64,000 nt of DNA, from contig NC_058063.1 in assembly GCF_020085105.1 (NCBI RefSeq), positions 20,576,262 through 20,640,261 of the forward strand, in the 5' to 3' direction. Made by a program: the position numbers and the translations under genes. Shown here in pieces: positions 7,286 through 30,193 of this stretch (the stretch's first letter is position 1; every line of letters begins with the position of its first letter). The notes beneath the pieces are model-generated. The model did no database searches. It had not been told where the DNA came from and was given only the letters and a program-made list of their open reading frames with translations. The stretch is from Siniperca chuatsi. Taxonomy: Eukaryota > Chordata > Actinopteri > Centrarchiformes > Sinipercidae.

Positions 7286-7545
7286 TTGGTTTAAGTCAGT
7301 TTGCTTTGTTTAAAAAGTTTGATACTCTGGCCACTGAGAACTCTGGATTCTGATTGGCTGGAATGTTTTGAAGGTGGATTAACTTTTAGTAACCCAGACA
7401 GTATAACCGGACACCTTTGACTTACGGTGCCCCACTGCATGCAGCTGGTGCACATTTTAATGTTTTCCTCCCCTGCCCCTCAGACAGCCCGAGTCCGCCA
7501 CTGCAGGATTTTAAAACAGTTCAGCCTTGTGAACCACTTCCTGTG

Positions 7546-8840: not shown

Positions 8841-8848
8841 TACCTGTG

Positions 8849-9958
8849 TGGCTAGATGTTACCTAGCAACGCAAACAATAGAAATTGTGAGGCTCAGGAA
8901 CTACATTTCATAATATTTTAAACGGAAAAGAGCGAAGTTTTGTTAACGTAAATCTTAACATATATTAACGACTTATATTTAAAATTATATTACGTTTGGC
9001 ATTTTGTTGGCAAGCAGCCGTGGTTTAAGCAGGAAAATACCCTCCTTGTATGTGCCCTGATTGATTCTGCGAAGGCAAACTGTTCTTAGCTCCCGGGTCA
9101 TCCATTACAATCAGTACAGTTTGCTGATGATGCAGCATAAAGCATCAGTACTGTTGCTATGGTTACTTAGCAGCAGTACTGATAGATAGCGAAACATCAT
9201 GAAATAACATCCACTTGATGGATTGGCACCAAATTTAGTTCGGACGTTCACGGTCCCCAGAAGATGAATCCTACTGACTGTAGTGATCCCCTGTTATGGT
9301 ACACAGAGTCTGGACCCAAAAGCACGACTTGACAACAGAGGGAGCTGAAGCGGTGAGTTTTGGGTTATTGTCACAAGGTGAAAGAGTAACCAGGTGTGTG
9401 GAGGGAAGCTCCGTGAGCAGGTAGACTGGGCGAGGACGGCTGGCTGACGTGGAGCAGCGGTGAACCCCTGGTGAGAAGTTTCTGGAGAGCCGGTGAGTAG
9501 GTTGGAGGCAGGTGTCGGTCTGAGGACTGAACCTGAACACAAGGAGTCAGGAAACGTGCAGGAAGACTTTCTATAAAGCAAGGTCAGAGGCCGAGACAGA
9601 GTACCTCTAGTGTTGACGGACTGGTGAGAAGAGCTGGGTAGATGGACTGCATGGTCTTGATTGGTGGATGGAGAACAGGTGAGTAGCAGGTGAGTCAGAT
9701 TCTGAGTCAGATTGGAGGTTCACTGGAGGGCACGCTCCACCAGCACACACATACACAGGAGTGTAGAGAGAGACAGAGACAGAGACCAGCAGCTGGACCA
9801 AAACATCCCCTGACTGTTCTTCTAGTGCCACCATAAACTTGACAGTCATGGTTTTATGTGAAATGTCTCAAAGCAGCGCTGTGCATCAGTACAGCCTCAC
9901 AGGGGCGTTAGCATGGCTGCAGTCTTGTTACATGCGTGACTACAAATGTCCAGCAGGT
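8849..9958 (-). other. 3' flank of Ig copy 2
   Basis: Downstream sequence of copy 2, mirrored at 28138-29086. It includes 8995-8999, the unoccupied version of the retrotransposon target in the other arm. The 80-95-codon frames near 9271-9849 are also open in the mirrored arm, but with indels and no domain, so I do not call them genes. Confidence 0.6.
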
Positions 9959-11927
9959 TTACAGGAAGTAAAAAGTAAAGCAGTACAGTAGTACTGCAGC
10001 CAAACCTAATCTGCAGTGGCAGGTGGTCGCTCCCTGGCTTGTTGGCTTTTGTGTCCCAGCTTCGGGCCGATCACTGGCTGTAAAGAGAAAAAACACATGT
10101 GTGTCTGTTATTCATGTGATGAGAAAACATGTAACAACAAAGTAACCAGCAGATGAAGGAGTTTTCATATTTACAGCATTGTCTGTTACAGTTCTAAGAT
10201 GCTTTTTGAAGGAGTTTTCATTAGTTTAGAAATGGCAGAATAGAAAGTGCAGAATGTGGGAGTTTGTGATTTGAAGCCACTGTGTGTAGGAGCTTTGTGT
10301 GATTGTAGCGTTTCTTCAATTAGTTTGATGACATAAGCTTTTGCTGGCTTTTACCAGCAGATGGAAGTGAAGTGTTTTAGTCAAAACCTGCATATAGTTC
10401 TTCAGGCCACAATACTTTTCTACTGATTGTGTTTCTGGAGTCATTTCACCAGTTAAAGGAACAGTTTGACAGTTTGGGAAATACACTTCTTTGCTTTCAG
10501 GTGGAGAGTTAGATGAGAACATTGATGGGACTCTCATATCTGTACAGAAATATGAGGCTACCACCAGCAGCCAGTTAGCTTAGCTTAGCATAAAGACTGG
10601 AAACAGGGGGAAACAGCTAGCCTGGCTCTGTTCAGAGGGAACAGATCCACCTACCAGCACCTCTAAAGCTCAATAACTAACATGTTAGATCTTATTTGTT
10701 CAATACGTACAAAAACTGAAGTGGAAAAAACGTCAGTTCGCTGTTTTATGGGGTTTATGTGTCGGACCATTTCTTGGGCAGGTACAGTAACTTCTGGATT
10801 CTCCGCTGGTTGCCTGGCAACTGCTCCCAGCCAAGAAATAGTCCGGCACATAACCCCCCGATTTTAAACTTCGATTTATGTACGGATTAAACAAACTAGA
10901 TTTATGATTTACTCTTGTATTCAAGATGCAAATACTTCAAAATGATGTGAAGTTACAAAGACTACAAACTCCTGAGGACATATAGTTAGCAGGCACGTAC
11001 TTGGTGGACGGCTCAAACAAACACAGACATGTTTGAGTCATCAGCTACACTTAGGTCCAAACAATATGTCTGTAGTCCAGTTTAGCAGCCCAGTCACAAC
11101 AGCACTGATTACTGACGCAGAATATCCAGCTGAAAGAAATCTGAAGAGAAAGTTCTACTGAATCAACTTACCAGTGACAGTGAGTCTGCTTTTACCAAAG
11201 CTGCCACCATAAGTTGTCCTCACTTCACACAGGTACAGGCCCGAGTCCTCAGTCCTGAGTCTGGACACATGAAGTCTGAGTCGTCCTTCTCTGAGGACGT
11301 CTCTGTCACACTGGACTCGTCCTGCAAACTGTCCATCCTGAGACTCTGGGACCTCAACACCAGCTTGTAGATCATAAAGGACTGAGACCTTGAGATCAGT
11401 AATCCGCTCACAGTAGATATAAAAGGAGTTTGAACTGTCAGGTTTGGTTGTGAACGTCCATTCCAGTGTGATGTCCTCGTTCTCCTCTGCCTGATAGGAG
11501 CTCTGTGTCACATTCACTACAAATGTTCCTGCTGAGGAGACAGAGAGGGAAAGTGAGGACCAGACAAAGGGACAACTTTAACATGTGAGCCTTTAAACTC
11601 CATCTAGAGATGTTGATGTATTCATATCAAAGCTGGGAGGCTGGTAAACAAAAAGTTCAGAGATACTACAGTAAAAAAGCTGCATGATACCAACAATAAA
11701 TACAACTCAAGCAATACTTGAAGATAAAGGATCTTCCTGATTTTAATAAGGACTGTCTACTTTCTATAAAGAGTCCTGCAGATGTTTTCACTGACTGATT
11801 TAAAGATGGAGGTCTGAAGGCTGAAAGAGTATTTAGTCTCTTCTCTTTCTGGATAATAACCTGCAGGTGGAAACGAACCACAGACGCAGGAGGTCAGGGT
11901 GATGAGCAGCAGGATGCTGCAGGTCAT
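9959..11927 (-). CDS. Ig copy 2: V-set protein with hydrophobic C-terminus, no tail
   Basis: Three predicted exons: 11927-11879 (signal peptide), 11528-11172 (V domain, 357 bp) and 10077-9959 (119 bp), phase 1 throughout, 174 residues. The V domain shares ITLEW and DSGLYLC with copy 1 but has its own patches (SFYIYCERI, YDLQAGV, GGSFGKS). The last exon encodes a short stalk, CHC, then a hydrophobic run LGLAAVLLYCFTFYFL that ends the protein. This could be a GPI-attachment signal or a tail-less TM helix; the sequence does not decide. It is the inverted partner of copy 5 (26168-28137). Introns are nearly identical between the two while the V exons differ at about 22 of 357 bases. Confidence 0.78.
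10750..10858. repeat. Imperfect palindromic MITE core in the copy 2 intron
   Basis: Arms 'ggtttatgtgtcggaccat' (from 10752) and 'agtccggcacataaccccc' (to about 10858) are near reverse complements around a ~50-base loop. It is mirrored at 27238-27346. It belongs to a wider repeat (about 10440-10870) that includes 'ttaaaggaacagtttgacag' at 10454. Confidence 0.7.
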
Positions 11928-13430
11928 CTTCTCCCTGTGAGAGGAGACAGAGGTGAAGAGTCAGAAACACACGAGGTCAAAGTTCAGTCGTCACATGTCT
12001 GAGAGGAAACATCTACAGTCTGTCTGCAGTCATTACAACCCTACTTTGTATTTATTCTCCTGCTCATCACACACAGCTGACCAGAGCACTTCCTGACTGG
12101 TAGCTGCTAATGCTAAGCTGCAGTCATGTGTTTCTGTCACAAGATGGCGCCAGTGCTTCAACTCTCCACCATCCAAATGAAAACAAAGAGCATTCAGCTT
12201 CACACAGGCTGGAATAAATCCACTAAGTGGCCAGAAGTATGGGGGGTCCTCTGATGAGGCCAGACGAGGAGGAAGACGAGTGCGGCTGCAGGGAATCTAC
12301 TCGAAGAACTCCCATCCTGGCTTCTGCAGTCACTGCTGCAGTTATGTGCAGGGTTTCTTGCTGGGGGAGCATTTCCCCCCAATAGAAGAAATGTTTAAAG
12401 TTGGCTGCGTACTGGGGGTCTCTGTTTATTTGGAAGGAAGAATGATGCATGTATATTACAAAATACTAATTTATTTGATCAAGTTTTGTCTGATATAATT
12501 TCAGACTTGCCATATTTAGTTTTATACTTCCTGAGCTCCTAACTCATGAAGGCGGAACGGTGACGTGTTATGGACAGGAATAGACACGAAAACTTTGTGC
12601 AAGCTTCACAGCTGCCAGCAAAGTGAAACTGCATGGTGAATTTCCACAATCGCTGTTCAGGTTAAATGTAGCACTGACAGGCTCCTTTATTCCAGAAGTT
12701 GCCTCTTACTCGGCTTTGTGAATTTGGTCCAGGACATAAACACATTGCGATCTCTGCAGCTCAGAGAAACATGCTGCATCAGTAAATCTGGAATATAAGC
12801 AGCTCTGAATGTAAAGGAACGAGAATGTAACTGCAAACAAACCTGAATTTAATTCAGTCACCATAGAAACACTCGGTGTGGTCCCCTTATTAACAGCAGC
12901 AGACACAAACCAGCTGATGCTGCTGTCGGATCTCGCGGTAACAACGCGTCCCACTATCCAGGCTGATCTGCGAGCTTCATCTTTAAAGTGTCTCCGTGGA
13001 GTAAAAAGCCAGCTGAAGAAGAAGGGACCTGTAACATCACATGGACATACGAGGTTCTTCTTCCTGCACGTGCAGCTGTCCCCGCTGCTGTTTAACGGCA
13101 CATGGAGCTGCTTTTGAGGTGGATCAGGTTTTAGGATGATCCGGCTTCCTCTCAGTGAATCCCATGAAAGCTGCTGCTGTTGAATTGTCTCGTTACTGAG
13201 CGAACCGGCCGCTTTATTATTCGTAGACACCTCGTCTGATCCGGGAGTGCAGCGAAAGCTCCGGTGGAAATAAGACAGAGTTCCTTTAATGACTCCGCAT
13301 TGAACAGGCCTACAGAGGCTGCACTTCCCTTTCCCCAAGGGACCGAGGAAGCAGTCCTTCCTCCTGCAGAACTGAAGGACCAGACCGCGAGACGGGGACA
13401 GCTGGTCTACGCGCTGCAACACAGTGAGTT
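11928..13430 (-). other. Upstream/intronic block of Ig copy 2
   Basis: Non-coding block repeated upstream of copies 3, 4 and 8, and in noisy form at 45-46 kb and 56-57 kb. It contains a segment of about 410 bp (roughly 12920-13330) that is absent upstream of copies 3 and 4. Both sides of that segment carry GCAGC. A long minus-strand frame (13626-12706) crosses the promoter and is not treated as a gene. Confidence 0.55.
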
Positions 13431-13545
13431 CATATTTATATACCGTCATCCTGACTGATGCAGCAGAGATGGGTAGGAAAGCGAACGAGCTGTTTCCTTT
13501 ATAGTGAGCGATGTTAGTCCCGCCCCGCAGAACACGACACCCAAT
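13431..13545 (-). promoter_or_regulatory. Core promoter of Ig copy 2
   Basis: On the minus strand, in order: ATTGG (inverted CCAAT, 13541-13545), a GC box (13519-13528), CTATAAAG (about 13498-13504) and TATATAAATA (13431-13442). GGAAAGCGAAC (13476-13486, plus strand) is IRF-like. The layout matches 18293-18405 for copy 3. Confidence 0.55.
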
Positions 13546-14383
13546 CAGCACACTTTTACGAAAACAAACCGCACAAGTAATGTTCCTGTTTGTCCTGAAA
13601 CCTTGTGCTTTCATCTGACCTAACATAACCTACCTCCTCATTCACTCCCCGATTCATATGACCTACCTCCTCATCCTCACCGTGTTTCACAGTTTCATTA
13701 GAAGTCTTCGCACATAAAATATCTCTGAGTCTAAAATCATGAACTCTGCAGTTTTCAGAAGCAGCTTCTCTGCAGCGGCCGCAGGATGGAAATGCTCGGC
13801 TTTCCTCTAACAGAAAGTTTCTTTATGTTTCATTGTAAAGATGATTTTATGAGACTTACTGACAGACGATCATGCTGCTAAATGTCCTGTGGTTGGGGAC
13901 ATTTTCATGGCCCAGAGAAGCTGAAGAAATTCATCCAAATATTCCAGATACACATTTAGATTCTTGTGAGGAGACACAAAACTTCTGAACTCTGCAGTTT
14001 CAATCCTGGAGCAGGTTTTCCAGGTCCAGATCCAAGTAGCTCAATAAAGAACCGAACATAAAAACTTTGGGCCGGTTTGAATCGATTTTCAATCTGCGTC
14101 GATTTCAAATGAATATGTTCGTCAGTCACGTGTGAACAAACAGTAAATGCAGCTCAGCTGAACACAAAACAACACAAACAGTAAATCATACAGAAGTTTT
14201 AGTTACTTACGTGTTTGAAGGCGAGCAGCTTTATGTCTGAACTTCATTATCAGTTCAACAGACGGACAGCTGATCTACATGTTCATGGTTCATTCTTCTT
14301 CTTCTGTTGAGTTTTATGGCGCTCGGCGTCCCTAATTGTTCATTACCGCCACCTGCTGGATTTTAACAGCTTCACAGTTTAAA

Positions 14384-15093
14384 CTATTTACAGTGTCCAC
14401 CTAAAGTGCTCCCATGCCATAGTCCAGTCTCTAACCCAGACCCAAGTGTCTGAGCCGGTGCAGCTCCTTCCCTCAGTGTAACATCTGGATCCTCTCCAGA
14501 TGTGTCCACAGCATTCAGGAACCTCCTTGCAGCGTCCAGCGCCATCTTAATCCTTTCCGACTCCCCCTTTATTCCAGCAGCACAGTTTATAACCGTGGCA
14601 AGAAATGCCAGAAATCGCTTCTTGCCCATACTGATGTTCCGCTCATCTCCATTTCCTTTCTGCTGCTTTTCCTTTTGCACCATTTCACCGTTTCTCTCCA
14701 TTCTCTCAGCAGCTTCAGCGTATGACAATCCCCTTTCTGCTCTGATCTCATTCACTTTTACTTCCTTAATTCTCTCTGGGCTCTGTGCTGATCCCGTATG
14801 GTGGTTTCCCTTCGCAGTGCAGGCACTTTGCTTGCTCTTTCTCCAGTTATCCTTCCCACACCTCCTGCCTCCTCTTCATCCTGCAGCAACTCGTCCATAT
14901 TCCTGACAGCAGAAACACCTGAGAGGAGCTCCCTCACCCTGTAACACACATGATCTAGATCCCCTCTCTCTGGTAACTCCTCCTCAAACGTCAAACACAC
15001 CGAGCTACTCTCCTCCTCCTCCCCGTTTCTGAATCTTGTCAGCCTTCTCGCCTCACACACACCTTCAGCCTCCCGACATGACTCGGCCTCCAC
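14384..15093 (-). pseudogene. LINE ORF1 (gag-like), frameshifted
   Basis: The frame starting MEAESCREAEG (15093) ends at a stop near 14758. The adjacent frame resumes with NEIRAERGLSYAEAAERM and continues to KKRFLAFLATVINCAAGI and RIKMALDAARRFLNAV. The SYAEA and FLAFLATVIN blocks are typical of I/Nimb-group ORF1 C-termini. One frameshift separates the parts, and no ORF2 follows before the 3' end. Confidence 0.65.
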
Positions 15094-15536
15094 CGTCTGC
15101 TTTATCTAATGCATGTTTATCTGACTTTATTACTCCCCTTCTTCTTCACTTCTGCTCCGAGGAGGAAGCAGTCCACACCGCTGTGATCTCTAAACGCATG
15201 AATCTTCAGAGCTGTGTCTCTCTGACGCTTTGACAGGCAGTCAGTGAGAACCATCCCACTTCCTGTTATCCTGACAGATCTGACATCTCCGAGCTTTCCT
15301 CCTACAGACTTTCAGACCTCATGTGTCTGCGTCACAGCGACCATCCCGACAAGATACTTCTCCTCTTTCTTCACCGTCTGACCGGATTCACTTGAGTTAC
15401 TCTTCTTCCTTTTCTTTCCAACGTTATGGTGCGTAACACCAACCGACGTTATGGTGCGTAACACCAACCAGCGTTATGGTGCGTTACCGCCACCAGCTGG
15501 ACTGGAGTGTGGATCGGGACTCTCGCTGTCCCTTCA

Positions 15537-16207
15537 CTAATGATTAAATAAAGAAAATAAACTGAGACGTGTTCTCCTCAGATACTGAAGCAACAGCAGA
15601 TAACACTTCTCTCCAGAACTTGTTTGTGAAAGATCTCGTAGATCAAACCTGGTCTTTATTTCTCTAAGCTTCAGGGTCAGCTCTCTTCTCTCGGCGTCAT
15701 ATTTTGGACAGTAAATCACAACATGTCCCACAGTTTCTTCTTGGTCCCAGAATGAGCATCTTCCTGTGTGATGCTTTCCTATTTTACATAATGTGCAGTT
15801 TAACCCTGTGTGGCCCAACCGGAGCCTGGATATTACAGTTTCCTCTTCACACCGGCTTTCCTTTGACTGTTGTAAAGCCACCTTCCTGTTCTCTCTTCTT
15901 CTCGCTGCTTCAACTTCTCCTTAACTGTGGTTTTCATTTCTCTTTTACTAAGGGCTACTGCGATGTCAGTGTGTGTTTTTGTGGCTTCCTTTGCAGCCTT
16001 GTCCGCTCTTTCATTTCCTTTGCTTCCTATATGTGCAGGGATCCACAGTAATGTCACATTTGCTGCTCCGCTCCCTGCCTCTCTACCACTCTGCCCTTCA
16101 GCCTCTCTTTCTACACTGAACCTCCTCATCCCATCAGCACGTTCAGCAGATTCCTTCCAGTTACAAGTCTCACATTTATCTGACACTGACTGTTTCATGG
16201 CATACAA
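15537..16207 (-). pseudogene. LINE ORF2 C-terminus: second RNase H end and zinc-knuckle
   Basis: The minus-strand frame has the RNase H C-terminal signature LLWIPAHIGSKGNERADKAAKEA (last part of the fold, with its Asp). After a frame change it gives SRLRLGHTGLNCTLCKIGKH and a C-x-H/C zf-RVT motif ending HVVIYCPKYD. The ORF ends near FSLFNH at 15537. Frame breaks mean no active protein. Confidence 0.7.
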
Positions 16208-16209
16208 GC

Positions 16210-16826
16210 TAGCATTGAGTCCTGTGTGTCCTGGTCTTAGCCTAGAACAGATAACATCTTCTGTCCTACATTTACCTGATTCTTTCTGACTCTGGCTTGG
16301 ATTTTATAGTATTCTATAGTTATTCCATGTTTCCTGCCATGATGCCATTATTCCCTGATGAGTTAGTGATTTTGCTTCTGATCTCCCAAAACTAATTTCT
16401 AAAATGTCATTATCATTTTGTTTAGTGCATCTTTAGCAAGTTCATCTGCAGCCTCACTTCCCTCTATTCCAGCGTGAGCTGGTCTCCAGCAGAAATGGAC
16501 GTCTGTTCCTGGTTGCTGCAGATTCAGTAGGCTCATATAAACCTCGATTAACAGATCCTCTCGGACTGTTTCTCCTGACTGTGTACTTTGTCTTGCAGCA
16601 GCAGAACCTGAACATACCACCACTTTAACCGGTTTAACCTCCTCTACCCACTGAAGACTTCTGCTGTGTGTCCTGAGAACCTGTTTGAGTTTCTCTGATC
16701 AGATCCTCGGTCAGATTCTGGGATGTGTATACCCAGCCCTACGTGTTCGTTATCTGAGTGTTTTGATCCATCTGTAAACATATTAAGATAATTATAGTAA
16801 CTTTTCTTCACATACTCTTGAACCAT
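16210..16826 (-). pseudogene. LINE ORF2 remnant: first RNase H and partial zinc-knuckle
   Basis: Starts with MFTDGSKHSDN (first catalytic Asp region), continues to FCWRPAHAGIEGSEAADELAKDA at 16480-16430, then RLRPGHTGLNASL near 16250. The knuckle runs straight into the second RNase H copy (16207 on), so the RNase H and knuckle modules occur twice in a row. Stops and shifts interrupt it. Confidence 0.65.
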
Positions 16827-17040
16827 GCACCCAGTGTTATTATTCCTCTCTGCCCACTCTCTCCTCTTTTCTAATATTTGCAGATTTACTTTGGGTTGTG
16901 GAAATATCCGTGGGGAAACGCTGCTATGGATAACTGCTGGACTGTGTTGTATAGTATCTCATTTGTACTGTTTCACTTTCTTGTTAATGTCCCAGCCAAA
17001 ACCTTTACCAGGAAATGTTGGACGAATGAGGGACTACACC

Positions 17041-17440
17041 TCTATATTCCCAAAGTTGTTGCTATGGTTACCTGCTGGTATGTTTGATGTGCTCTGATGG
17101 ACAGTTTTATTACCTGCCAGCCAATAGGACTGTGTCCGTGGCATTTCTGTGTCTCTCCCCAGCTCTTCACACATGACCATGGTGTCACCATGTGTTTCTG
17201 TGATCTCTGCTTCCCTGCTCTACGGGCATGCCATGCCTCACTGACTGAGCGCTCAGTGTAAACTACCTCTTCATCACGGGAAACGGAAAAGGAACACGTC
17301 AGCTTTCATCAGGAGCCTAACAGGTTACTGTGTGCCTACCACTGTCCTTGGTTGACCCCCTTGCTATAGATGACACGGTGGTTTACTCGCTTTTACCTCT
17401 GACGCCCAGATGCAGCTCCGCCCTGACATCGTTCATTAAA
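17041..17440. other. Scrambled Ig-gene flank
   Basis: 17048-17150 matches the copy 1/copy 4 3' flank ('ttgctatggttacctgctgg'). The rest to 17440 has no recognised feature. Confidence 0.5.
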
Positions 17441-17646
17441 AGGAGCCAGCTCGTTCGCTTCATATCTACAGCAGCTGACAGGATGACAGTATAAATATCT
17501 GTTCACTTCGTTGCAGCGCGTAGATCAGCTGTCTGACTAACTACCTCTTCATCACGGGAAACCTTTAGTGTTGTGTAGAGAAGCAGTCCGTCTGTTGATG
17601 ATAATGAAGTTCAGACATAAAGCTGCTCGCTCGCCTTCAAACACGT
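17441..17646 (+). promoter_or_regulatory. Second, upstream promoter-like block for Ig copy 3
   Basis: TATAAATA at 17490-17497 lies in the same context as the copy 1 promoter, with a degraded 'cgttcgcttc' motif upstream. About 150 bases on, 'caaacacGTAAGTaac' (17637-17650) is a good splice donor and is conserved in mirror image near 14205-14220. An alternative first exon is possible. Confidence 0.4.
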
Positions 17647-18292
17647 AAGTAACTAAAACTTCTGTATGATTTACTGTTTGTGTTGTTTTGTGTTCAGCTG
17701 AGCTGCATTTACTGTTTGTTCACACGAGACTGACGAACATATTAATTTGAAATCGACGCAGATTGAAAATCGATTCAAACCGGCCCAAAGTTTTTATGTT
17801 CGGTTCTTTATTGAGCTACTTGGATCTGGACCTGGAAAACCTGCTCCAGGATTGAAACTGCAGAGTTCAGAAGTTTTGTGTCTCCTCACAAGAATCTAAA
17901 TGTGTATCTGGAATATTTGGATGGATTTCTTCAGCTTCTCTGGGCCATAAAAATGTCCCCAACCACAGGACATTTAGCAGCATGATCGTCTGTCAGTAAG
18001 TCTCATAAAATCATCTTTACAATGAAACATAAAGAAACTTTCTGTTAGAGGAAAGCCGAGCATTTCCATCCTGCGGCCGCTGCAGAGAAGCTGCTTCTGA
18101 AAACTGCAGAGTTCATGATTTTAGACTCAGAGATATTTTATGTGCGAAGACTTCTAATGAAACTGGGAAACACGGTGAGGATGAGGAGGTAGGTCATATG
18201 AATCGGGGAGTTTCTGAAAAAGACCCGCAGGACAAAGACGGCAGAGGTCACACTTTGGATCTGGTTGTGCGGTTTGTTTTCGCAAAGTGCTG

Positions 18293-18405
18293 ATTGGGTG
18301 TCGTGTTCTGCAGGGCGGGACTAACATCGCTCACTATAAAGGAAACAGCTCGTTCGCTTTCCGACTCATCTCTGCTGCGTCAGTCAAGATGACAGTATAT
18401 AAATA
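18293..18405 (+). promoter_or_regulatory. Core promoter of Ig copy 3
   Basis: In order: ATTGG (18293-18297), GC box GGCGGG (18314-18319), TATAAAGG (18335-18342), an IRF-like complement CGTTCGCTTTCC (18351-18362) and TATATAAATA (18396-18405). The downstream exon-like block ends GGGGAAACGGAAGTG, without the GT donor seen at copy 1. Confidence 0.55.
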
Positions 18406-18879
18406 TGAACTCACTGTGCTGCAGCGCGTAGACCAGCTGTCCCCGTCTCGCGGTCTGGTCCTTCAGTTCTGCAGGAGGAAGGACTGCTTCCTCGGTCCCT
18501 TGGGGAAACGGAAGTGCAGCATCAGCCGGTTTGTGTCTGCTGCTGTTAATAAGGGGACCACACCGAGTGTTTCTATGGTGACTGAATTAAATTCAGGTTT
18601 GTTTGCAGTTACATTCTCGTTCCTTTACATTCAGAGCTGCTTATATTCCAGATTTACCGATGCAGCATGTTTCTCTGAGCTGCAGAGATCGCAATGTGTT
18701 TATGTCCTGGGCCAAATTCACAAAGCCGAGTAAGAGGCAACTTCTGGAATAAAGGAGCCTGTCAGTGCTACATTTAATAATAATGTTTTGAATATTCACC
18801 GTTTCACTTTGCTGGCTGCTGTGATGCTTGCACCGGCCCGCCCATATCAAGGCTCTTTGCATGCAATATCCAACATGGG

Positions 18880-19180
18880 GGGGGGGGCAGATGACTCAGA
18901 GGAGCTTGAGGGCCGGCAGCAGCTGAGTTAGAGGGGGATGAGCAGGAGCCGGTGTGTCGAGTCTGTTAAAGAACAGATTCAGTTCGTTGGCCCTGTCCAA
19001 GCTGCCTTCAGCTCCTCTGCTGCCAGTCGGTCTGAAGCCAGTGATGGTCTTCATGCTGCTCCAGACCTCTCTCATGTTGTTCTGCTGGAGTTTTCACTCC
19101 AGCTTCCTCCTGTACTTCTCCTTGGTCTCCTGATCTTCACCTCCAGGTCGGCCTGGATTGCCCTCACCTCCTCCCTATAA
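18880..19180 (-). mobile_element. L2-like LINE fragment upstream of Ig copy 3
   Basis: Minus-strand translation in shifting frames gives pieces of the linker between endonuclease and RT in fish L2-like ORF2 (a 'KLEW..QQNNMREVW' and 'ANELNLFFN'-like region). It is frame-broken and bounded by a G run at about 18877-18887. Absent at the equivalent site of other copies. Confidence 0.6.
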
Positions 19181-19322
19181 CAATGAGCAAGATAATAAAT
19201 ACAAAGGAGTGTTGTAATGACTGCAGACAGACTGTAGATGTTTCCTCTCAGACATGTGACGACTGAACTTTGACCTCGTGTGTTTCTGACTCTTCACCTC
19301 TGTCTCCTCTCACAGGGAGAAG

Positions 19323-21351
19323 ATGACCTGCAGCATCCTGCTGCTCATCACCCTGACCTCCTGCGTCTGTGGTTCGTTTCCACCTGCAGGTTATTATCCA
19401 GAAAGAGAAAAGACTAAATACTCTTTCAGCCTTCAGACCTCCATCTTTAAATCTGTCAGTGAAAACATCTGCAAGACTCTTTATAGCAAGTAGACAGTCC
19501 TTATTAACATCAGGAAGATCCTTTATCTTCAAGTTTTGCTTGAGTTGTATTTATTGTTGGTATCATGCAGCTTTTTTTCCTGTAGTATCTCTGAACTTTT
19601 TGTTTACCAGCCTCCCAGCTTTGATATGAATACATCAACATCTCTAGATGGAGTTTAAAGGCTCACATGTTAAAGTTGTCCCTTTGTCTGGTCCTCACTT
19701 TCCCTCTCTGTCTCCTCAGCAGGAACATTTGTAGTGAATGTGACACAGAGCTCCTATCAGGCAGAGGAGAACGAGGACATCACACTGGAATGGCGCTTCT
19801 CGTCCAAAGCCAACATTTCCCTCCCCTCACTTAAGATCCACTGTTTGTTTGTGTTACCTGAGCTGAAGGTGTTTTATCATCTGGACAACAGTGTTGAGGA
19901 GTCTCAGCATGAGCAGTTTGCAGGACGGGTGCAGTGTGACAAAGACGCTCTCAGTACAGGACGCGTCAGACTTCATCTGTCCAGAGTCAGGACTGACGAC
20001 TCGGGCCCGTACCTCTGCAGAATGGCCACTGAATTCGGCAAGAAGATTAAAGAGTTCTCACTCAACATCACTGGTAAGTCGACTCAAGGTTGTCAAATAT
20101 ATATCTGCTTATAACAGTTTGTCTAATGTTTGCGAACGTGAAAACACATGGACACATTCCATCAGCTGTCGATACAAAAGCAAAAATGTACCTTAAAATG
20201 TTTGTTGTCTAGAAATGATTATTTCTCTTTTAGTTAAATTGAATCTTGACAAGAGATTGAACTTTGATAACAGTTTGGGTTGTTTACAAAAAGAAGCAGT
20301 CTTCATATTTACCTCAGACGCAGACATTATGTGTCCTGTTTGTTAGTTGGCAGACTGTCTTGAAAACCTGTTCATGGATACGTCTGGTGACATTCTTTAT
20401 TTTTGTCATTGTCAACAAATCACATCAGTCAGTCTCTCAGCACTTCCTGAATCCCCCTGCCTGTCGGGAGCTCTCAGCCCATTTGTTCCTACTGAAGATC
20501 TAAATCTTTAAAAATGGGTTATAAATATATACTTTCATTTTTTTTAAAAAAGCTCAGTAGTTTCCTAAAACAGCTGGCCACTGTAGTTTTTAGCAAAAGT
20601 TACTCAAACAGGAGGAAATAGTGCATTTGTGGGGCACTATTTTCAGCTGCGGATTAATACACATGTGGTGCTGTAGTGAATATTTCCAGCAGCGAGATGG
20701 AACCTTTCAGGTTGGAGGTGGGGAGGTGGAGGAGGTGGAGGTGGAGGTGGAGGTGGAGGAGGTGGAGGAGGTGGAGGAGGGTTGCACAATCGTAGATCTG
20801 ACAGACAGAATGACTGAAGCTCAGTGATACTTAAAGAACAGCCTCTGAGGACTGATTGGCTCGAAGAATGCAGGCAGAAAGATCATTGGCCAGATATGGT
20901 GACATCAGAAATGAATCAAAGGGATTTTCACAGCGTGGGAAAGTGGAAGTGACGTAGTTGACTGAAGCGGAAAAGGCAGGAAAATCGAGTAGAACAAGAA
21001 CCAGACTTGATTATCAGAACTACAATCGTGGACTAGAAGAAACAAGATATTCCTTCCTGTCACTTGTACTGACTTTATTTAAAACAATGTTTGTGCTTGG
21101 CGGACCTTTTTTGTCCTTCACACCTAACAGTAAATACTTTGTGGTGTACTTTAAGTTTTCTGTGAAATGTTTTCTCCTCAGATAAATCACATACAGACAC
21201 AATAGCTGACGAGCCCAAACCTGTGATACCAAAACCAGCGAGCCGGGGAAGAATCGGCCTCTACGTTGGACTGGGACTGGCAGCGGCAGCAGCAGCTGCA
21301 CTGGCTGTCTGTCGCTGTACTTCATCATATACTGCACTGCACTCCACCTGA
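19323..21351 (+). CDS. Ig copy 3: divergent V-set membrane protein, short tail
   Basis: Predicted exons 19323-19371, 19723-20073 (351 bp) and 21182-21351, phase 1 junctions, 189 residues. The signal peptide equals that of the other copies. The V domain is the most diverged: ITLEWRFSSKANISL, a C-strand HCLF, DDSGPYLC and a distinct FG region (MATEFGKKIKEF), with extra glycosylation sites NIS and NIT. The last exon encodes a charged and Pro-rich stalk, then LYVGLGLAAAAAAALAVC as TM, and about a 12-residue tail ending HST. No repeats and no signalling motif. Intron 2 carries a GGAGGT repeat. It faces copy 2 head to head. Confidence 0.8.
20711..20781 (+). repeat. GGAGGT-rich tandem repeat
   Basis: Purine-rich array of GGAGGT/GGAGGA units in intron 2 of copy 3. 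Many closely spaced GG pairs make a two-layer quadruplex possible. Confidence 0.9.
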
Positions 21352-21933
21352 AGCGGAGACAGTAGGACCGAGAAGCTGTGTGCAGTGACACACACGTGAA
21401 ATGTTTCAGCTTTCTTAAACTTCTGCTGCCCCCTGCTGCTCTGAAGAGAAATCCACCAGATGGGAGTCTGAAGACAGAACTGGTTCTTCTGTTAGAGCAT
21501 CACGTTTCCAAGTGATGGATAGAAATCCAAAAACACTCCAGCTGAGTTTCGTGGTGGTTTTCTGCCTCATGGTTACCTGATTCAATGGTCCCGCTGCTGT
21601 TAGTTCCTGCCGTAACAGACAGAACAGGCCAAGCTGATAGCAGTGCTCACTCTAAAGCTGGTGAGGATGTTATCTTGGTTCATGTTAAACTGGATGACTT
21701 GTGCAGGCACTGGTTGTATTTCTGGTCATCTCTTGTTATTATGTGCTGACTTAAACGTCAGATGTACTGTAACTCCACGAAGAGTACTGTAATGCCAATT
21801 ACTGTTGATGCAGAGTATAGATTATTGCTCTATTATGAGTTCTACTAAAGTGAAGATGCTGTTAAAGTATCAGCAGGTCTGATAACTTGGTGTCGTTATT
21901 GTACAGATCATTTAATGTACATTCAGGGCTTGC

Positions 21934-22291
21934 TGGATGGTGGAAGAAGGACTTTTACTTAAGTAAAAAACGTAACACCACAGTGCAGAAATACAAGTAA
22001 AAGTACAAAGTATTAGCAACAAAATACACTTAAAGTACAAAAAGTAAAAGTACTGATTATGCAGAATGGCCCATTTCAGAATAATGTGTGTTATGTTATT
22101 GAATTATAATTATTGATGCATTGATGTGTTCATCACTTTAATGGTACAGCTGGTAAAGGTGGAGCTTATATTTTACTAAACATACTGAGCGTGAATTTCA
22201 CCAAGGGAGTAGAAGTATAAAGTAGCATAAAATGAAATTGGACTGAAGTACAGAACTTGAACAAATGCACTGAGTTACTTTCCACCGCTGG
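21934..22291. mobile_element. Fish MITE with GGTGGAA/TTCCACC ends
   Basis: It starts 'atggtggaagaaggactttt', passes through Acc-rich 'acttaagtaaa' and 'gtactgattatgcagaatgg' blocks, and ends 'gagttactttccaccgctgg'. This matches a very common percomorph MITE. Its end part also opens the window (1-165). Confidence 0.65.
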
Positions 22292-23143
22292 TTGTATGTT
22301 ACAGTCAGCTGCTAAACTATTGTGTAGCTTTAAAAACAAAAACATCATCAGCATGTCTGTAAATATCTACATATGCATACATATATATCTGTAAATATAG
22401 ACTTTTATACTGTGTTTTATCATCACTGGATCACATGTTAATCTATCCAGTTTTATGCACTTCATCTTATGAGCCTTATTTGAATTGACAAGTGTTTAAG
22501 ATTTGTATTTACTGAAGTTAAAAAGTAAATTATTAATTTTCTAATGAATCTTTTAGGAATAAAAATAAATAAATAAAAACTTTGCTGTTTCCATTTTTCC
22601 CAGAATATTCCTTTTTTATTTTTCATTATATATTTTCAAGAAACAGATGCATGAAAAATACACAAATACATCTCTTGGCTGTCTTTCCATATTCTAGTCA
22701 TTAATGCGGAAGAAACATTAAATATCACATCACAAAAAACAATTATCCCAGATTAGCATATTTACATATTATACAAGGAAGAAACTGTGCAGATTTCAGG
22801 TCTGTCTGATACGTGACAGAGTGTGATGAGGTGTCCAATAAAAACACTGGACAGCGTAAAGGTGAAGAACAGCGTTTCCTCCATCAGGTCCATTATTTTG
22901 TACATTTACACTTTGTTTGTTGTCATTTTACTCATGTGATGTGTGTGAAGCATCAAAGCTGTTGCTATGGTTACCTGCTGGTATGTTTGATGTGCTCTGA
23001 TGGACAGTTTTATTACCTGCCAGCCAATGGGAAACTGGTATTTTCTGTGTCCGTGGTATAAAGTTGAATTCTAACAGTCTTGTCTCGTTTACATTGTTGA
23101 TCAAACTGTTTCCTCTGATCCATCTGCTGATCTGTAACTTTGC
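22292..23143 (-). other. 3' flank of Ig copy 4 (LINE-free duplicate)
   Basis: Direct duplicate of 166-515 joined to 2133-2692. The junction near 22645 is the empty site of the 1.6-kb LINE. No separate gene is seen. Confidence 0.75.
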
Positions 23144-24306
23144 TCAGATCATCACTGGAGACTGACTGGGTGGACTTTGTTCACCAGGCTGAGAGTGGCT
23201 GAATAAACAGTAACAAACACCCAGCACAGCTGCTGCTGCTGCTGTCAGTCCCAGTCCACAGTAGAGGACGATCCGTCCCCGACTTTCTGTGTTTGGTCTC
23301 TCAGGTTCGGGCCGATCCCTCGCTGCTGTAAAGAGACCAAACACATCTGCCATTCATGTGAAGAAAAAACATTTCAATATAAAAGGAAACAAAATATCTA
23401 CAACAGATGAAGATGTAACATATTTCCCAGATACTGCGAGAAGGAAGTAAAGATTGTGGATTGTGGTAGTCCAAAATACTTTTCCTCTCAGGTTCTTATT
23501 TATCCATAAAAGCTGCTGAACTGAAGAGAAAGTTCTGCTGAATCAACTTACCAGTGACATTGAGTCTGCATTCACCGAAGCTTTCACCATAACTTGTGAA
23601 CACGTCACACAGGTACTGGCCCGAGTCCTCAGTCCTGAGTCTGGACACATGAAGTCTGAGTCGTCCTTCTCTGAGGACGTCTCTGTCACACTGGACTCGT
23701 CCTGCAAACTGTCCATCCTGAGACTCTGGGACCTCAACACCTTCATGCAGATGATACAGGACTGAGGCCTTGTGATCAGTAATCAGTTCACATAAGATAT
23801 TAAGGGAGTTTGAACTGTCAGGTTTGGTTGTGAACGTCCATTCCAGTGTGATGTCCTCGTTCTCCTCTGCCTGATAGGAGCTCTGTGTCACATTCACTAC
23901 AAATGTTCCTGCTGAGGAGACAGAGAGGGAAAGTGAGGACCAGACAAAGGGACAACTTTAACATGTGAGCCTTTAAACTCCATCTAGAGATGTTGATGTA
24001 TTCATATCAAAGCTGGGAGGCTGGTAAACAAAAGATACTACAGTAAAAAAAAAAAAAAAAAGCTGATACCAACAATAAATACAACTCAAGCAAAACTTGA
24101 AGATAAAGGATCTTCCTGATTTTAATAAGGACTGTCTACTTTCTATAAAGAGTCCTGCAGATGTTTTCACTGACAGATTTAAAGATGGAGGTCTGAAGGC
24201 TGAAAGAGTATTTAGTCTTTTCTCTTTCTGGATAATAACCTGCAGGTGGAAACGAACCACAGACGCAGGAGGTCAGGGTGATGAGCAGCAGGATGCTGCA
24301 GGTCAT
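23144..24306 (-). CDS. Ig copy 4: V-set membrane protein, truncated tail
   Basis: Predicted exons 24306-24258, 23908-23552 (357 bp) and 23325-23144, phase 1, 195 residues. V domain patches: NILCELI, KASVLYHLHEGV, CDVFTSYGESFGEC. The TM exon equals copy 1 (GLYCGLGLT-type start with five GCT-repeat alanines) but only one to two tail repeats remain. Relative to copies 1 and 8 a single C is missing in 'cagatc(c)atcactgg' (about 23150), shifting the frame so the protein ends SPVMI and loses the SEETV end. It is the direct duplicate of copy 1. Confidence 0.8.
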
Positions 24307-25744
24307 CTTCTCCCTGTGAGAGGAGACAGAGGTGAAGAGTCAGAAACACACGAGGTCAAAGTTCAGTCGTCACATGTCTGAGAGGAAACATCTACAGTCT
24401 GTCTGCAGTCATTACAACACTCCTTTGTATTTATTCTCCTGCTCATTACACACAGCTGACCAGAGCACTTCCTGACTGGTAGCTGCTAATGCTAAGCTGC
24501 AGTCATGTGTTTCTGTCACAAGATGGCGCCAGTGCTTCACCTCTCCACCATCCAAATGAAAACAAAGAGCATTCAGCTTCACACAGGCTGGAATAAATCC
24601 ACTAAGTGGCCAGAAGTATGGGGGTCCTCTGATGAGGCCAGACGAGGAGGAAGACGAGTGCGGCTGCAGGAATCTACTCGAAGAACTCCCATCCTGGCTT
24701 CTGCAGTCACTGCTGCAGTTATGTGCAGGGTTTCTTGCTGGGGAGCATTTCCCCCCAATAGAAGAAATGTTTAAAGTTGGCTGCGTACTGGGGGTCTCTG
24801 TTTATTAGGAAGGAAGAATGATGCATGTATATTACAAAATACTAATTTATTTGCTGAAGTTTTCTCTGATATAATTTCAGACTTGCCATATTTAGTTTTA
24901 TACTTCCTGAGCTCCTAACTCATGAAGGCGGAACGGGCGCGTGTTATGGACAGGAATAGACACGAAAACTTGCCCCGAGTCTTTGTGCAAGTTTCGCAAC
25001 AAACAGCAAATTCAAACTGCATGGTGAATTTCCACAATCGCTGTTCAGGTTAAATGTAGCACTGACAGGCTCCTTTATTCCAGAAGTTGCCTCTTACTCG
25101 GCTTTGTGAATTTGGCCCAGGACATAAACACATTGCGATCTCTGCAGCTCAGAGAAACATGCTGCATCGGTAAATCTGGAATATAAGCAGCTCTGAATGT
25201 AAAGGAACGAGAATGTAACTGCAAACAAACCTGAATTTAATTCAGTCACCATAGAAACACACGGTGTGGTCCCCTTATTAACAACAGCAGACACAAACCA
25301 GCTGCTGCTGCACTTCCCTTTCCCCAAGGACCGAGGAAGCAGTCCTTCCTCCTGCAGAACTGAAGGACCAGACTGCGAGACGGGGACATCTGGTCTACGC
25401 GCTGCATCATAATGAGTTCCGCACAACACAACAACCAGATCCGAAAATCTGCAGTAGTTAGGTGTCGCGAACGAGCTGCCTCCTTTTAATGAACGATGAG
25501 ACCCGCAGAACACGAAATCCAATCAGCACTTTACGAAAACAAACCGCACAACCAGATCCAAAATGGGAGCTGTGCCCTTTGTCCTGCGGTCTCAGCTTCA
25601 TATGACGTAATCTACTGCACTTTCTATTCTGCCATTTCTAAACTAATGAAAACTCCTTCAAAAAGCATCTTAGAACTGTAACAGACAATGCTGTAAATAT
25701 GAAAACTCCTTCATCTGCTGGTTACTTTGTTGTTACATGTTTTG
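24307..25744 (-). other. Upstream block of Ig copy 4, promoter damaged
   Basis: Corresponds to 11928-13600 upstream of copy 2, lacking the ~410-bp segment. At the expected core promoter (about 25400-25480) the TATATAAATA of the other copies is absent. CGAACGAG and the CCAAT box (25519-25523) remain. 25600-25744 duplicates 27840-27970 directly. Confidence 0.55.
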
Positions 25745-26167
25745 TGCACATAACTGCAGCAGTGACTGCAGAAGCCAGGATGGGAGTTCTTCGAGTAGAT
25801 TCCCTGCAGCCACACTCGTCTTCCTCCTCGTCTGGCCTCATCAGAGGACCCCCCATACTTCTGGCCACTTAGTGGATTTATTCCAGCCTGTGTGAAGCTG
25901 AATGCTCTTTGTTTTCATTTGGATGGTGGAGAGTTGAAGCAGTGGCGCCATCTTGTGACAGAAACACATGACTGCAGCTTAGCATTAGCAGCTACCAGTC
26001 AGGAAGTGCTCTGGTCAGCTGTGTGTGATGAGCAGGAGAATAAATACAAAGGAGTGTTGTAATGACTGCAGACAGACTGTAGATGTTTCCTCTCAGACAT
26101 GTGACGACTGAACTTTGACCTCGTGTGTTTCTGACTCTTCACCTCTGTCTCCTCTCACAGGGAGAAG

Positions 26168-28137
26168 ATGACCTGCAGCATCCTGCTGCTCATCACCCTG
26201 ACCTCCTGCGTCTGTGGTTCGTTTCCACCTGCAGGTTATTATCCAGAAAGAGAAAAGACTAAATACTCTTTCAGCCTTCAGACCTCCATCTTTAAATCTG
26301 TCAGAGAAAACATCTGCAGGACTCTTTAGAGAAAGTAGACAGTCCTTATTAAAATCAGGAAGATCCTTTATCTTCAAGTATTGCTTGAGTTGTATTTATT
26401 GTTGGTATCATGCAGCTTTTTTTTACTGTAGTATCTTTGAACTTTTTGTTTACCAGCCTCCCAGCTTTGATATGAATACATCAACATCTCTAGATGGAGT
26501 TTAAAGGCTCACATGTTAAAGTTGTCCCTTTGTCTGGTCCTCACTTTCCCTCTCTGTCTCCTCAGCAGGAACATTTGTAGTGAATGTGACACAGAGCTCC
26601 TATCAGGCAGAGGAGAACGAGGACATCACACTGGAATGGACGTTCACAACCAAACCTGACAGTTCAAACTCCCTTAATATCTTCTGTGAACTGATTACTG
26701 ATCACAATGTCTCAGTCCTGTATCATCTGCATGAAGGTGTTGAGGTCCCAGAGTCTCAGGATGGACAGTTTGCAGGACGAGTCCAGTGTGACAGAGACGT
26801 CCTCAGAGAAGGACGACTCAGACTTCATGTGTCCAGACTCAGGACTGAGGACTCGGGCCTGTACCTGTGTGACATGCTCACAACTTATGGTGGTGGCGTT
26901 GGTGAAAGCAGACTCACTGTCACTGGTAAGTTGATTCAGTAGAACTTTCTCTTCAGATTTCTTTCAGCTGGATATTCTGCGTCAGTAATCAGTGCTGTTG
27001 TGACTGGGCTGCTAAACTGGACTACAGACATATTGTTTGGACCTAAGTGTAGCTGATGACTCAAACATGTCTGTGTTTGTTTGAGCCGTCCACCAAGTAC
27101 GTGCCTGCTAACTATATGTCCTCAGGAGTTTGTAGTCTTTGTAACATCACATCATTTTGAAGTATTTGCATCTTGAATACAAGAGTAAATCATAAATCTA
27201 GTTTGTTTAATCCGTACATAAATCGAAGTTTAAAATCGGGGGGTTATGTGCCGGACTATTTCTTGGCTGGGAGCAGTTGCCAGGCAACCAGCGGAGAATC
27301 CAGAAGTTACTGTACCTGCCCAAGAAATGGTCCGACACATAAACCCCATAAAACAGCGAACTGACGTTTTTTCCACTTCAGTTTTTGTACGTATTGAACA
27401 AATAAGATCTAACATGTTAGTTATTGAGCTTTAGAGGTGCTGGTAGGTGGATCTGTTCCCTCTGAACAGAGCCAGGCTAGCTGTTTCCCCCTGTTTCCAG
27501 TCTTTATGCTAAGCTAAGCTAACTGGCTGCTGGTGGTAGCCTCATATTTCTGTACAGATATGAGAGTCCCATCAATGTTCTCATCTAACTCTCCACCAGA
27601 AAGCAAAGAAGTGTATTTCCCAAACTGTCAAACTGTTCCTTTAACTGGTGAAATGACTCCAGAAACACAATCAGTAGAAAAGTATTGTGGCCTGAAGAAC
27701 TATATGCAGGTTTTGACTAAAAAACTTCACTTCCATCTGCTGGTAAAAGCCAACAAAAGCTTATGTCATCAAACTAATTTAAGAAACGCTACAATCACAC
27801 AAAGCTCCTACACACAGTGGCTTCAAATCACAAACTCCACATTCTGCACTTTCTATTCTGCCATTTCTAAACTAATGAAAACTCCTTCAAAAAGCATCTT
27901 AGAACTGTAACAGACAATGCTGTAAATATGAAAACTCCTTCATCTGCTGGTTACTTTGTTGTTACATGTTTTCTCATCACATGAATAACAGACACACATG
28001 TGTTTTTTCTCTTTACAGCCAGTGATCGGCCCGAAGATGAGACACAAAAGCCAACAAGCCAGGGAGCGACCACCTGCCACTGCAGATTAGGTTTGGCTGC
28101 AGTACTACTGTACTGCTTTACTTTTTACTTCCTGTAA
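26168..28137 (+). CDS. Ig copy 5: V-set protein with hydrophobic C-terminus, no tail
   Basis: Predicted exons 26168-26216, 26569-26925 (357 bp) and 28019-28137, phase 1, 174 residues. Partner of copy 2 in the opposite arm with the same last exon (ASDRPEDETQ stalk, CHC, hydrophobic end FTFYFL). V patches: NIFCELI, NVSVLYHLHEGV and CDMLTTYGGGVGES. The promoter block is not in this arm: homology to copy 2 stops at 25745, about 420 bases before the ATG. Its promoter is therefore unclear, and it may be an orphaned coding copy unless an upstream start is borrowed. Confidence 0.72.
27238..27346. repeat. Palindromic MITE core in the copy 5 intron
   Basis: Mirror of 10750-10858: 'ggggggttatgtgccggact' and its near complement 'ggtccgacacataaacccc' flank a ~50-base loop. 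Confidence 0.7.
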
Positions 28138-29086
28138 ACCTGCTGGACATTTGTAGTCACGCATGTAACAAGACTGCAGCCATGCTAACGCCCCTGTGAG
28201 GCTGTACTGATGCACAGCGCTGCTTTGAGACATTTCACATAAAACCATGACTGTCAAGTTTATGGTGGCACTAGAAGAACAGTCAGGGGGTGTCCTGGTC
28301 CAGCTGCTGGTCTCTGTCTCTCTCTACACTCCTGTGTATGTGTGTGCTGGTGGAGCGTGCCCTCCAGTGAACCTCCAATCTGACTCACCTGCTACTCACC
28401 TGTTCTCCATCCACCAATCAAGACCATGCAGTCCATCTACCCAGCTCTTCTCACCAGTCCGTCAACACTAGAGGTACTCTGTCTCGGCCTCTGACCTTGC
28501 TTTATAGAAAGTCTTCCTGCATGTTTCCTGACTCCTTGTGTTCAGGTTCAGTCCTCAGACCGACACCTGCCTCCAATCTACTCACTGGCTCTCCAGAAAC
28601 TTCTCACCAGGGGTTCACCGCTGCTCCACGTCAGCCAGCCGTCCTCGCCCAGTCTACCTGCTCACGGAGCTTCCTCCACACACCTGGTTACTCTTTCAAC
28701 TTGTGACAATAACCCAAAACTAACCGCTTCAGCTCCCTCTGTTGTCAAGTCGTGCTTTTGGGTCCAGACTCTGTGTACCATAACAGGGGATCACTACAGT
28801 CAGTAGGATTCATCTTCTGGAGACCGTGAACGTCCGAACAAAATTTGGTGCCAATCCATCAAGTGGATGTTATTTCATGATGTTTCACTATCTATCAGTA
28901 CTGCTGCTAAGTAACCATAGCAACAGTACTGATGCTTTATGCTGCATCATCAGCAAACTGTACTGATTGTAATGGATGACCTGGGAGCTAAGAACAGTTT
29001 GCCTTCGCAGAATCAATCAGGGCACATACAAACTTGGAGGGTATTTTCCTGTTTATACCACGGCTGCTTGCCAACAAAATGCCAAA
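28138..29086 (+). other. 3' flank of Ig copy 5
   Basis: Mirror of 8995-9958 with some indels (for example, a 12-base repeat 'tctgagtcagat' in the left arm is missing near 28378). Ends with the 5-bp target CCAAA (29082-29086). No domain-bearing frame. Confidence 0.6.
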
Positions 29087-30068
29087 TGTAAATGACCATT
29101 GAATCCCCAATCACTGAAGTAGGCCGTCATCATTACTTCCAACCATATGGGGCAGTGTTGCCATGGAACTCCTGAGAAAGGCTTTCACAAGAAAGGACTT
29201 TATTATTGAACTTGAACCAAATGTTACGTTGTTTGTTTTTGGTTGACTAATAATTCTCGCTGCATACTTAATGTGGACATTGTATTTTTATTTGTTTTAT
29301 TAAGTGTACATATTTTACCTCACATGCTTTTATTTTGAAGTCTGGAAAAGGAAGTGCAGCAGCACTCTTTGTGTACATTGGCGCTCTTTTTACGTGAAGC
29401 GCCATTCTGATTTAACGTTAAGAGAGAAAGGATAAGCCCTTGGGTACTCACTGTACAAATGTTTGTTTTAAAAAGGTTTCTTTCTACATCTTAGCTCCTG
29501 GCTGAAGGGCACAAGGTACCGTTTTAGTTTTATGTTGTGTGGTAAACTTTGAAGGACTTTGAAGTGTTTGGTTTAGCTATATCATTCTTTAGCTAATGTC
29601 GTTATTGCCTTGTCAGTGTTTCTCTTGATTTGCACTCCAGATAGATTGTTTACAGTAATTCAGCACTTCATTTGGTAATTTTATATAATTAATTTACGTT
29701 TTTCTCTCTAAATTGAGATTGTCCGTTTTACCAAAATTAATTGATTGTTAACTCGGTGTTTCATGTAACGTAGTTAACATCGCACTCTAAAAGGAGATTG
29801 TTGTAATTAAAACAATTCATATAGGTTATTACATTAGCCAGTTTGCTAAAATGTGATTTTATTTACACATTATTTATGATTTAAGCCAATTAATTGCAAA
29901 TGTGTATTCGTTTATATATTTATGGATATTTGTATACAATTTGCAGGCAGATGTCTAATGATTGTTTGTTTGTTTTTATTCAGCTCTTACGGTGTTTTTG
30001 GAAATTAAATTCTTTATAAACATCAGTTCCTGAGAGTAAAATGCAGCTGTTCAGCCGGGAATGCTACA
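29087..30068 (+). repeat. 5' LTR of the BEL/Pao element
   Basis: Starts TGTAAATGACC and ends GGGAATGCTACA. Compared with the 3' LTR I see three substitutions (for example g29436 versus a36534). The primer-binding site after 30068 is not recognisable to me. Confidence 0.95.
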
Positions 30069-30193
30069 GTAAGAGCTTTACCCAGAAGAACAACAGCTTC
30101 ACCTAATCAGTCCTACCTCACCTCTGAAAGCTGTCTAATGACAACCAAAGGACTTAATATGATAATCTAGTCCAATGCACGCCTGTAAAGAAA

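Follow-up and report, generated by a model that had tools for sequence, protein, structure and literature searches.

The gene array at the locus

The stretch of DNA considered here (the window) comprises 64 kb of the Siniperca chuatsi genome (assembly GCF_020085105.1, contig NC_058063.1, positions 20,576,262 to 20,640,261), numbered from its first base, and carries an array of genes coding for proteins with a single V-set (V) domain. Eight copies of the V exon are found, on both strands; the exon is open in copies 1, 2, 4, 5 and 8 and in copy 3, and is broken by indels in copies 6 and 7. Copy 3 belongs to a subfamily separate from that of the hypervariable copies. The genes are built on one plan, in which a signal-peptide exon of 67 bp is followed by the V exon and then by either a transmembrane (TM) exon with a tail (copies 1, 4 and 8) or a short, tail-less hydrophobic exon (copies 2 and 5, and also the Dicentrarchus protein P0026). 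The hydrophobic C-terminus suggests that the tail-less exon encodes a glycosylphosphatidylinositol (GPI)-like anchor. In copy 1, the usual donor position of the signal exon (4077-4143) reads TT instead of GT; an upstream donor may be in use, as the sequence of protein P0007 suggests, or the gene may be impaired.

Two of the V domains have exact matches among annotated S. chuatsi proteins: that of copy 5 in LOC122870292 (P0001) and that of copy 8 in LOC122870268 (P0003). For copy 2, no match above 88% was found among the eight database proteins listed, a mismatch which may mean that the window represents another haplotype or assembly than the annotated one.

Divergence between copies 2 and 5

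Copies 2 and 5 lie in the two arms of an inverted repeat of about 5.8 kb, as an earlier note made from the sequence of this locus had proposed. The arms (A, 6543-12350; B, in reverse, 37167-39607 plus 25745-29086) align with 88 mismatches over 5,753 positions, 22 of which fall inside the V exon. The V exon thus differs at 22 of 360 positions (6.1%), compared with 66 of 5,393 (1.2%) in the rest of the arms (p = 1.2e-8), which rejects the uniform divergence of exon and intron that would have spoken against the note's reading. All of the differences are located between 11193 and 11424, in codons 33-53 and 99-110, that is, in a C-C' patch and an F-G patch, and none is found in the 222 bp of framework codons (Fisher p = 5.5e-11); the note's count of about 22, the patches to which it assigned them and the residues that it quoted were correct. 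Its statement that most of them alter the protein also holds, since 15 of the 19 affected codons change a residue and 4 are silent (16.7 nonsynonymous and 5.3 synonymous differences by the Nei-Gojobori method). Intron 2 differs at 1 of 317 aligned bases, in agreement with the single difference reported before, and intron 1 at 5 of 329.

The near-identity of introns did not extend to most of the other copies. It is seen in copies 2 and 5 and, for intron 1 only, in copies 8 and 3, but, with copy 6 set aside, intron 1 diverges by 5.8-14.1% whenever copy 1, 4 or 7 is one of the pair, and beyond the first 30 bases intron 2 of copies 1, 4, 7 and 8 bears no relation to the intron 2 found in copies 2 and 5, with about 61% of bases mismatched. 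Copies 1, 4, 7 and 8 vary at the same patches, as had been noted, but the broken copy 6 differs throughout. Among copies 1, 2, 4, 5 and 8, the V exon is nearly uniform except at the outward face of strands C, C', F and G.

The family and its V domain

Relatives of these genes are percomorph-fish proteins (among the best 120 of 886 matches; a second set comprised the best 120 of 582), and the family is already present in databases under annotated names such as uncharacterized, PD-L1-like, BTNL8-like and similar. Fish-type V domains also occur in records naming Paraclostridium dentum (P0096) or, besides Oreochromis, Mustela putorius furo (P0116), which are probably contaminated or mislabelled. 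The Pfam V-set cut-off of 26 bits is exceeded by copy 2 (32.2), P0004 (44.2) and P0009 (53.6), with copy 3, P0002 and P0007 slightly below it (25.0-25.9). Among PDB sequences, CD276 and PD-L1 lead the matches when copy 5 is the query, and CD276 leads with a profile. An AlphaFold2 model reached a mean predicted local distance difference test score of 72.8 and a predicted template modelling score of 0.60, with eight of the ten blocks that make up residues 41-140 at 84-92. PD-L1 came first in the fold lists for this model, but its Z score was tied with those of other V-sets, and in the VIA-align listing the rows for CAR, MPZL1 and nanobodies equal that of PD-L1, so fold alone does not single out PD-L1.

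Mapping of P0001 and P0003 onto the window yielded signal, V and anchor exons and no C domain, in a comparison that did not extend to hidden exons within introns. The Pfam C-set was absent from P0002, P0004, P0007 and P0009, and neither C-set nor B30.2 was matched in the eight sequences scanned against Pfam. The V core carries an exchange of residues: Trp replaces the B-strand Cys in 181 of 184 scored proteins, and Cys replaces the C-strand Trp in 174 of 184 (the set comprised 186 proteins, and some of the misses are pattern failures of the script). The canonical pair of B-strand and F-strand cysteines is therefore mostly lacking, its B-strand site being Trp, and a disulfide may instead join strands C and F within one sheet. 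A similar bond between strands of one sheet is known from domain 2 of CD4. The exchanged Cys and Trp are a distinctive structural mark of the family.

A J-like FGxGTxL motif was found in none of 147 proteins. In the 137 proteins with a TM-like stretch (isoforms kept, with a crude TM call), 5 have a match resembling an immunoreceptor tyrosine-based inhibitory motif (ITIM), 20 have a charged residue in the stretch, and none has an immunoreceptor tyrosine-based activation (ITAM) or switch (ITSM) motif. Isoforms with different V domains are annotated for single genes in Siniperca (LOC122870268), Sander (LOC116060419) and Dicentrarchus (LOC127363555); those of LOC122870268, P0003 and P0176, have a common tail. 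Such isoforms could arise from V exons in tandem that share their anchor exons, or else from the merging of gene models.

The variable face and the PD-L1 footprint

Variability was first scored in 111 V domains from the best 120 matches, with Thunnus and Epinephelus species pooled and several isoforms per gene. As the isoforms of one RefSeq gene do not always agree in the V domain, and some might be chimeric models, the analysis was rerun with one sequence per gene label, about one per locus, giving 51 sequences from eight species (including 5 from Dicentrarchus and 4 from E. fuscoguttatus, and two Scomber rows with the same name on different contigs). In later tests, Thunnus was represented by T. 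maccoyii only and Epinephelus by E. fuscoguttatus only. The Siniperca set consisted of ten sequences, namely window copies 1, 2 and 4 and seven annotated proteins; P0176 is the second isoform of P0003's gene, so the number of loci may be below ten.

Variable sites alternate along strands C (34, 36, 38, 40), F (97, 99, 101, 103) and G (110, 112, 114), and are also found in C' and the F-G turn, with low-variation sites between them (35, 37, 39, 98, 100, 102, 111, 113, 115). The AlphaFold2 model places strands at these alternating sites. With the 51 sequences, mean variability was 0.78 bits at outward sites of C, C', F and G, 0.11 bits at inward sites and 0.05 bits on the exposed opposite sheet; position 100 was the most variable inward site, at 0.34 bits in the run with several isoforms per gene. 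Hypervariability of the outward face among paralogs was thus also present in the sampled paralogs of seven other fish species. In the set of copy-3-type proteins (29, after four wrongly included Melanotaenia sequences had been dropped), the three means were the same as with 33.

Contacts of human PD-L1 with PD-1, as given in PMC10974325, were mapped through a HMMER alignment to positions 7, 34, 36, 38, 50, 97, 99 and 106-110; a thirteenth contact, Phe19, lies just beyond the scored span and was left out. Eleven of the 12 contact positions are among the 24 most variable of 116 sites (51 sequences), the exception being position 7 (Asp26), and their mean variability was reached by none of 100,000 permutations. 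The earlier suggestion of ligand-facing variation is supported to this extent, as paralogs of eight species vary at the face with which PD-L1 contacts PD-1; its alternative of selection or conversion is better put as selection and conversion.

Probable selection and exchange

Among the five intact copies, the proportions of nonsynonymous (pN) and synonymous (pS) differences were 0.141 and 0.099 in the patches and 0.002 and 0.019 in the framework, which suggests selection at the outward face. This suggestion is qualified by two observations: silent divergence is elevated in the patches as well, and between copies 2 and 5 pN equals pS (both 0.175). For this pair, silent divergence in the patches is thus as high as nonsynonymous divergence, one half of the pattern that the earlier note had named as adverse; the other half, a lack of structural clustering, was not seen. 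Four silent codon changes in about 30 silent sites exceed what the 1.2% divergence of the arms would give (p = 0.0006), an excess attributable to mosaicism. A history of point mutation and selection only since duplication of the arms is disfavoured for copies 2 and 5, since the four silent changes are confined to the patches, leaving the 222 bp of framework without any. Purely neutral conversion is in turn disfavoured by the contrast between outward, inward and opposite-sheet sites.

Which copy is nearest depends on the patch that is compared. Copy 2 most resembles copy 5 in its 5' flank and intron 2, matches copy 8 at every base of codons 97-113 (0 of 51 differ), and in its C-C' patch differs at 13-14 of 66 bases from copies 1, 4, 5, 7 and 8. 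For copy 5, the C-C' patch is close to those of copies 7 and 4, and the F-G patch is distant from those of the other copies. In a four-gamete test of six copies, 34 of 55 pairs of informative sites fail, 18 of them within the F-G patch. Across the ten Siniperca sequences, distances in C-C' and F-G are unlinked (r = -0.10), compared with a link between C and C' (0.68). Linkage of C-C' and F-G was also not significant in Sander (r = 0.21, p = 0.13; r = 0.00 in the isoform-rich run), Perca (0.21) and Dicentrarchus (0.02), and the two are linked in Thunnus maccoyii, Melanotaenia and Scomber.

Copy 3 differs from copies 2, 5 and 8 by about 2% in intron 1 and by about 30% in the V exon. From codon 22 on, its protein, together with its TM exon, is that of LOC122870298 (P0121), whose own strand A-B sequence is of the type seen in other fish for this subfamily. 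A tract of about 0.6 kb from the hypervariable subfamily thus runs directly into the body of the other subfamily, switching within the V exon between about codons 19 and 22. P0121 could represent the second allele of this gene or a further copy, and copy 3 itself could stem from a chimeric assembly. By eye, the two subfamilies of a species have similar signal peptides in Siniperca, in Epinephelus and in one of two Acanthopagrus genes, a likeness not seen in Sebastes and Pagrus. Selection alone does not explain the pattern, given the raised silent sites, the mosaic look of the copies and the chimeric copy 3.

Other features of the window

Arm B, otherwise continuous, is interrupted by a retroelement with long terminal repeats (LTRs) and long open frames, presumably of BEL/Pao type; its LTRs (29087-30068 and 36185-37166) are 99.7% identical over 982 bp. 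Further large inverted and dispersed repeats, about 80-93% identical, are found between the copies at 13315-18523 and 52204-56319, and frames around 14.4-17.0 kb look RNase H-like by eye. A gap of 100 N bases is present at 40001-40100, and the order across it rests on scaffolding.

Table 1. Coordinates of the V-domain genes and repeat arms in the window
Feature	Position	Strand	Remarks
Copy 1 V exon	3379..3738	-	Signal exon 4077-4143; TM/tail frame about 2693-3150
Inverted-repeat arm A	6543..12350	+	Holds copy 2
Copy 2 anchor exon, putatively GPI-like	9959..10077	-	38/40 residues as in P0001
Copy 2 V exon	11172..11531	-	360 bp, open frame, GTAAGT donor
Copy 2 F-G patch, codons 97-116	11173..11232	-	9/60 bases differ from copy 5
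Copy 2 C-C' patch, codons 33-54	11359..11424	-	13/66 bases differ from copy 5
Copy 2 signal-peptide exon	11861..11927	-	
Copy 3 5' tract of hypervariable type	19182..19793	+	Upstream piece, signal exon, intron 1, first V codons
Copy 3 V exon, apparent chimera	19720..20073	+	Codons 1 to about 21 hypervariable type, rest LOC122870298 type
Copy 3 TM exon	21182..21351	+	
Copy 4 V exon	23552..23911	-	Signal exon 24240-24306; TM exon from about 23325 down
Inverted-repeat arm B	25745..39607	-	Holds copy 5; divided by LTR retroelement at 29087-37166
Copy 5 signal-peptide exon	26168..26234	+	
Copy 5 V exon	26566..26925	+	360 bp; V domain as in P0001
Copy 5 C-C' patch, codons 33-54	26673..26738	+	Differs from copy 7 at 2/66, copy 4 at 3/66, copy 8 at 4/66
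Copy 5 F-G patch, codons 97-116	26865..26924	+	Differs at 9-11/60 from copies 1, 2, 4, 6, 7, 8
Copy 5 anchor exon, putatively GPI-like	28019..28137	+	
Copy 6 V exon, broken	50878..51320	-	Indels
Copy 7 V exon	57717..58137	+	Frame-breaking indels
Copy 8 TM/tail exon	60630..60925	-	
Copy 8 V exon	61147..61506	-	V domain as in P0003
Copy 8 signal exon	61837..61903	-	

Relation to known systems

Butyrophilin-like proteins are B7-related V-set proteins, and BTNL8 is the database name of some members of the fish family; both groups are multigene, but butyrophilins have a V and a C domain, and many of them B30.2, and neither C-set nor B30.2 was matched in the eight fish sequences scanned. NITRs and DICPs form multigene V-set arrays in fish, and a J-like FGxGTxL motif after the V domain marks the NITR family. 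The fish family described here differs from both in lacking this motif (none in 147 proteins) and perhaps in the rarity of signalling motifs. With PD-L1 (CD274/B7-H1) and CD276 it shares the V-set fold, the leading PDB sequence matches and, for PD-L1, variable sites at the contacts with PD-1, but it is set apart by its many gene copies, its hypervariable face, the Cys/Trp exchange and an ectodomain in which a single V domain, and no C domain, was seen. The proteins are B7-like by sequence and fold, but membership of B7 is not claimed, as no C domain was seen and Cys and Trp are exchanged. A single ancestral PD-L1 in ray-finned fish (PMC12151841) and the teleost B7 homologs B7H1/DC, H3, H4, H5 and H7 (PMC11599192) have been described, and the available parts of these two papers make no mention of the present family. 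The finTRIM genes, according to PMC2657112, are another multigene family of fish with positively selected hypervariable sites in the binding domain and a detected recombination point; they code for TRIM/B30.2 proteins, the fold of which is unrelated. No paper on the present family was found in a search of open-licence papers, which is weak evidence of novelty, and the earlier label of an undescribed recognition system is possible.

Interpretation

The explanation that we favour, with a probability of about 0.6, is that the array encodes single-V, B7-like surface ligands whose receptor-binding face has been diversified by selection and reshuffled by exchange of short tracts. Short-tract gene conversion or unequal exchange would homogenise the signal exon, intron 1 and the framework, and the same exchange would move patches between genes; diversifying selection on the face would maintain the diversity of the patches, and purifying selection or homogenisation would keep the scaffold. 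The proteins would act mainly as variable ligands, their PD-L1-like face binding a variable partner, most likely leukocyte counter-receptors as in B7/CD28 pairs.

A different role for the same face is conceivable, though considerably less probable: the V domains may bind microbes or be exploited by viruses, and the face would then vary in order to recognise or escape them, with no host counter-receptor. Its hypervariability, the many copies and the tail-less GPI-like forms would all fit, and a virus can use a V-set domain, as the PDB title of CAR D1 with an adenovirus fibre head indicates. Against this, B7 ligands come first among the relatives by sequence and PD-L1 comes first in the fold lists, and the variable sites coincide with a receptor-binding footprint that is already known. 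It is also unlikely that the patches are old, diverged tracts copied in by conversion between paralogs and otherwise near neutral. The raised silent sites in the patches (pS 0.099 against 0.019 in the framework, and equal to pN for copies 2 and 5), the exact F-G segment common to copies 2 and 8, and an intron 1 in copy 3 so close to that of copies 2, 5 and 8 are what such a mosaic would produce, but within the same tracts core residues are nearly fixed and outward ones are not, the opposite sheet is the least variable of all, and similar sites recur in eight species. That the proteins are activating or inhibitory receptors of NITR or DICP type, for which the typical teleost arrangement of NITRs in multigene V-set arrays could be cited, is very improbable in view of the missing J-like motif and of the counts of ITIM-like (5), ITAM or ITSM (0) and charged (20) matches in the 137 proteins with a TM-like stretch. 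Least probable of all is an assembly artefact, in which collapsed or chimeric copies would have produced the patch differences or the copy 3 chimera, as the lack of a close match for copy 2, the difference of copy 3 from P0121 in its 5' part only and the N gap might suggest, but exact counterparts of the V domains of copies 5 and 8 are annotated, possibly from this very assembly, and the patch pattern recurs in other species, leaving the copy 3 chimera alone exposed to it.

Beyond the ligand reading itself, a bolder and rather doubtful extension is that the genes belong to a percomorph-wide, germline-diversified recognition system, with two exchangeable patches on a fixed single-V scaffold that is GPI-anchored or tailed. 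In some species, tandem V exons may be alternatively spliced to shared anchor exons. The variable partner could be a co-evolving receptor set, in which case the system would parallel, in a vertebrate, the variable self-marker systems. Ligands of B7 type are as a rule few in number and conserved. A large fish family varying at PD-1-footprint positions predicts a matching variable set of receptors or strong pressure from pathogens, and the array would offer a clean system for watching exchange homogenise a framework while the binding face stays diverse.

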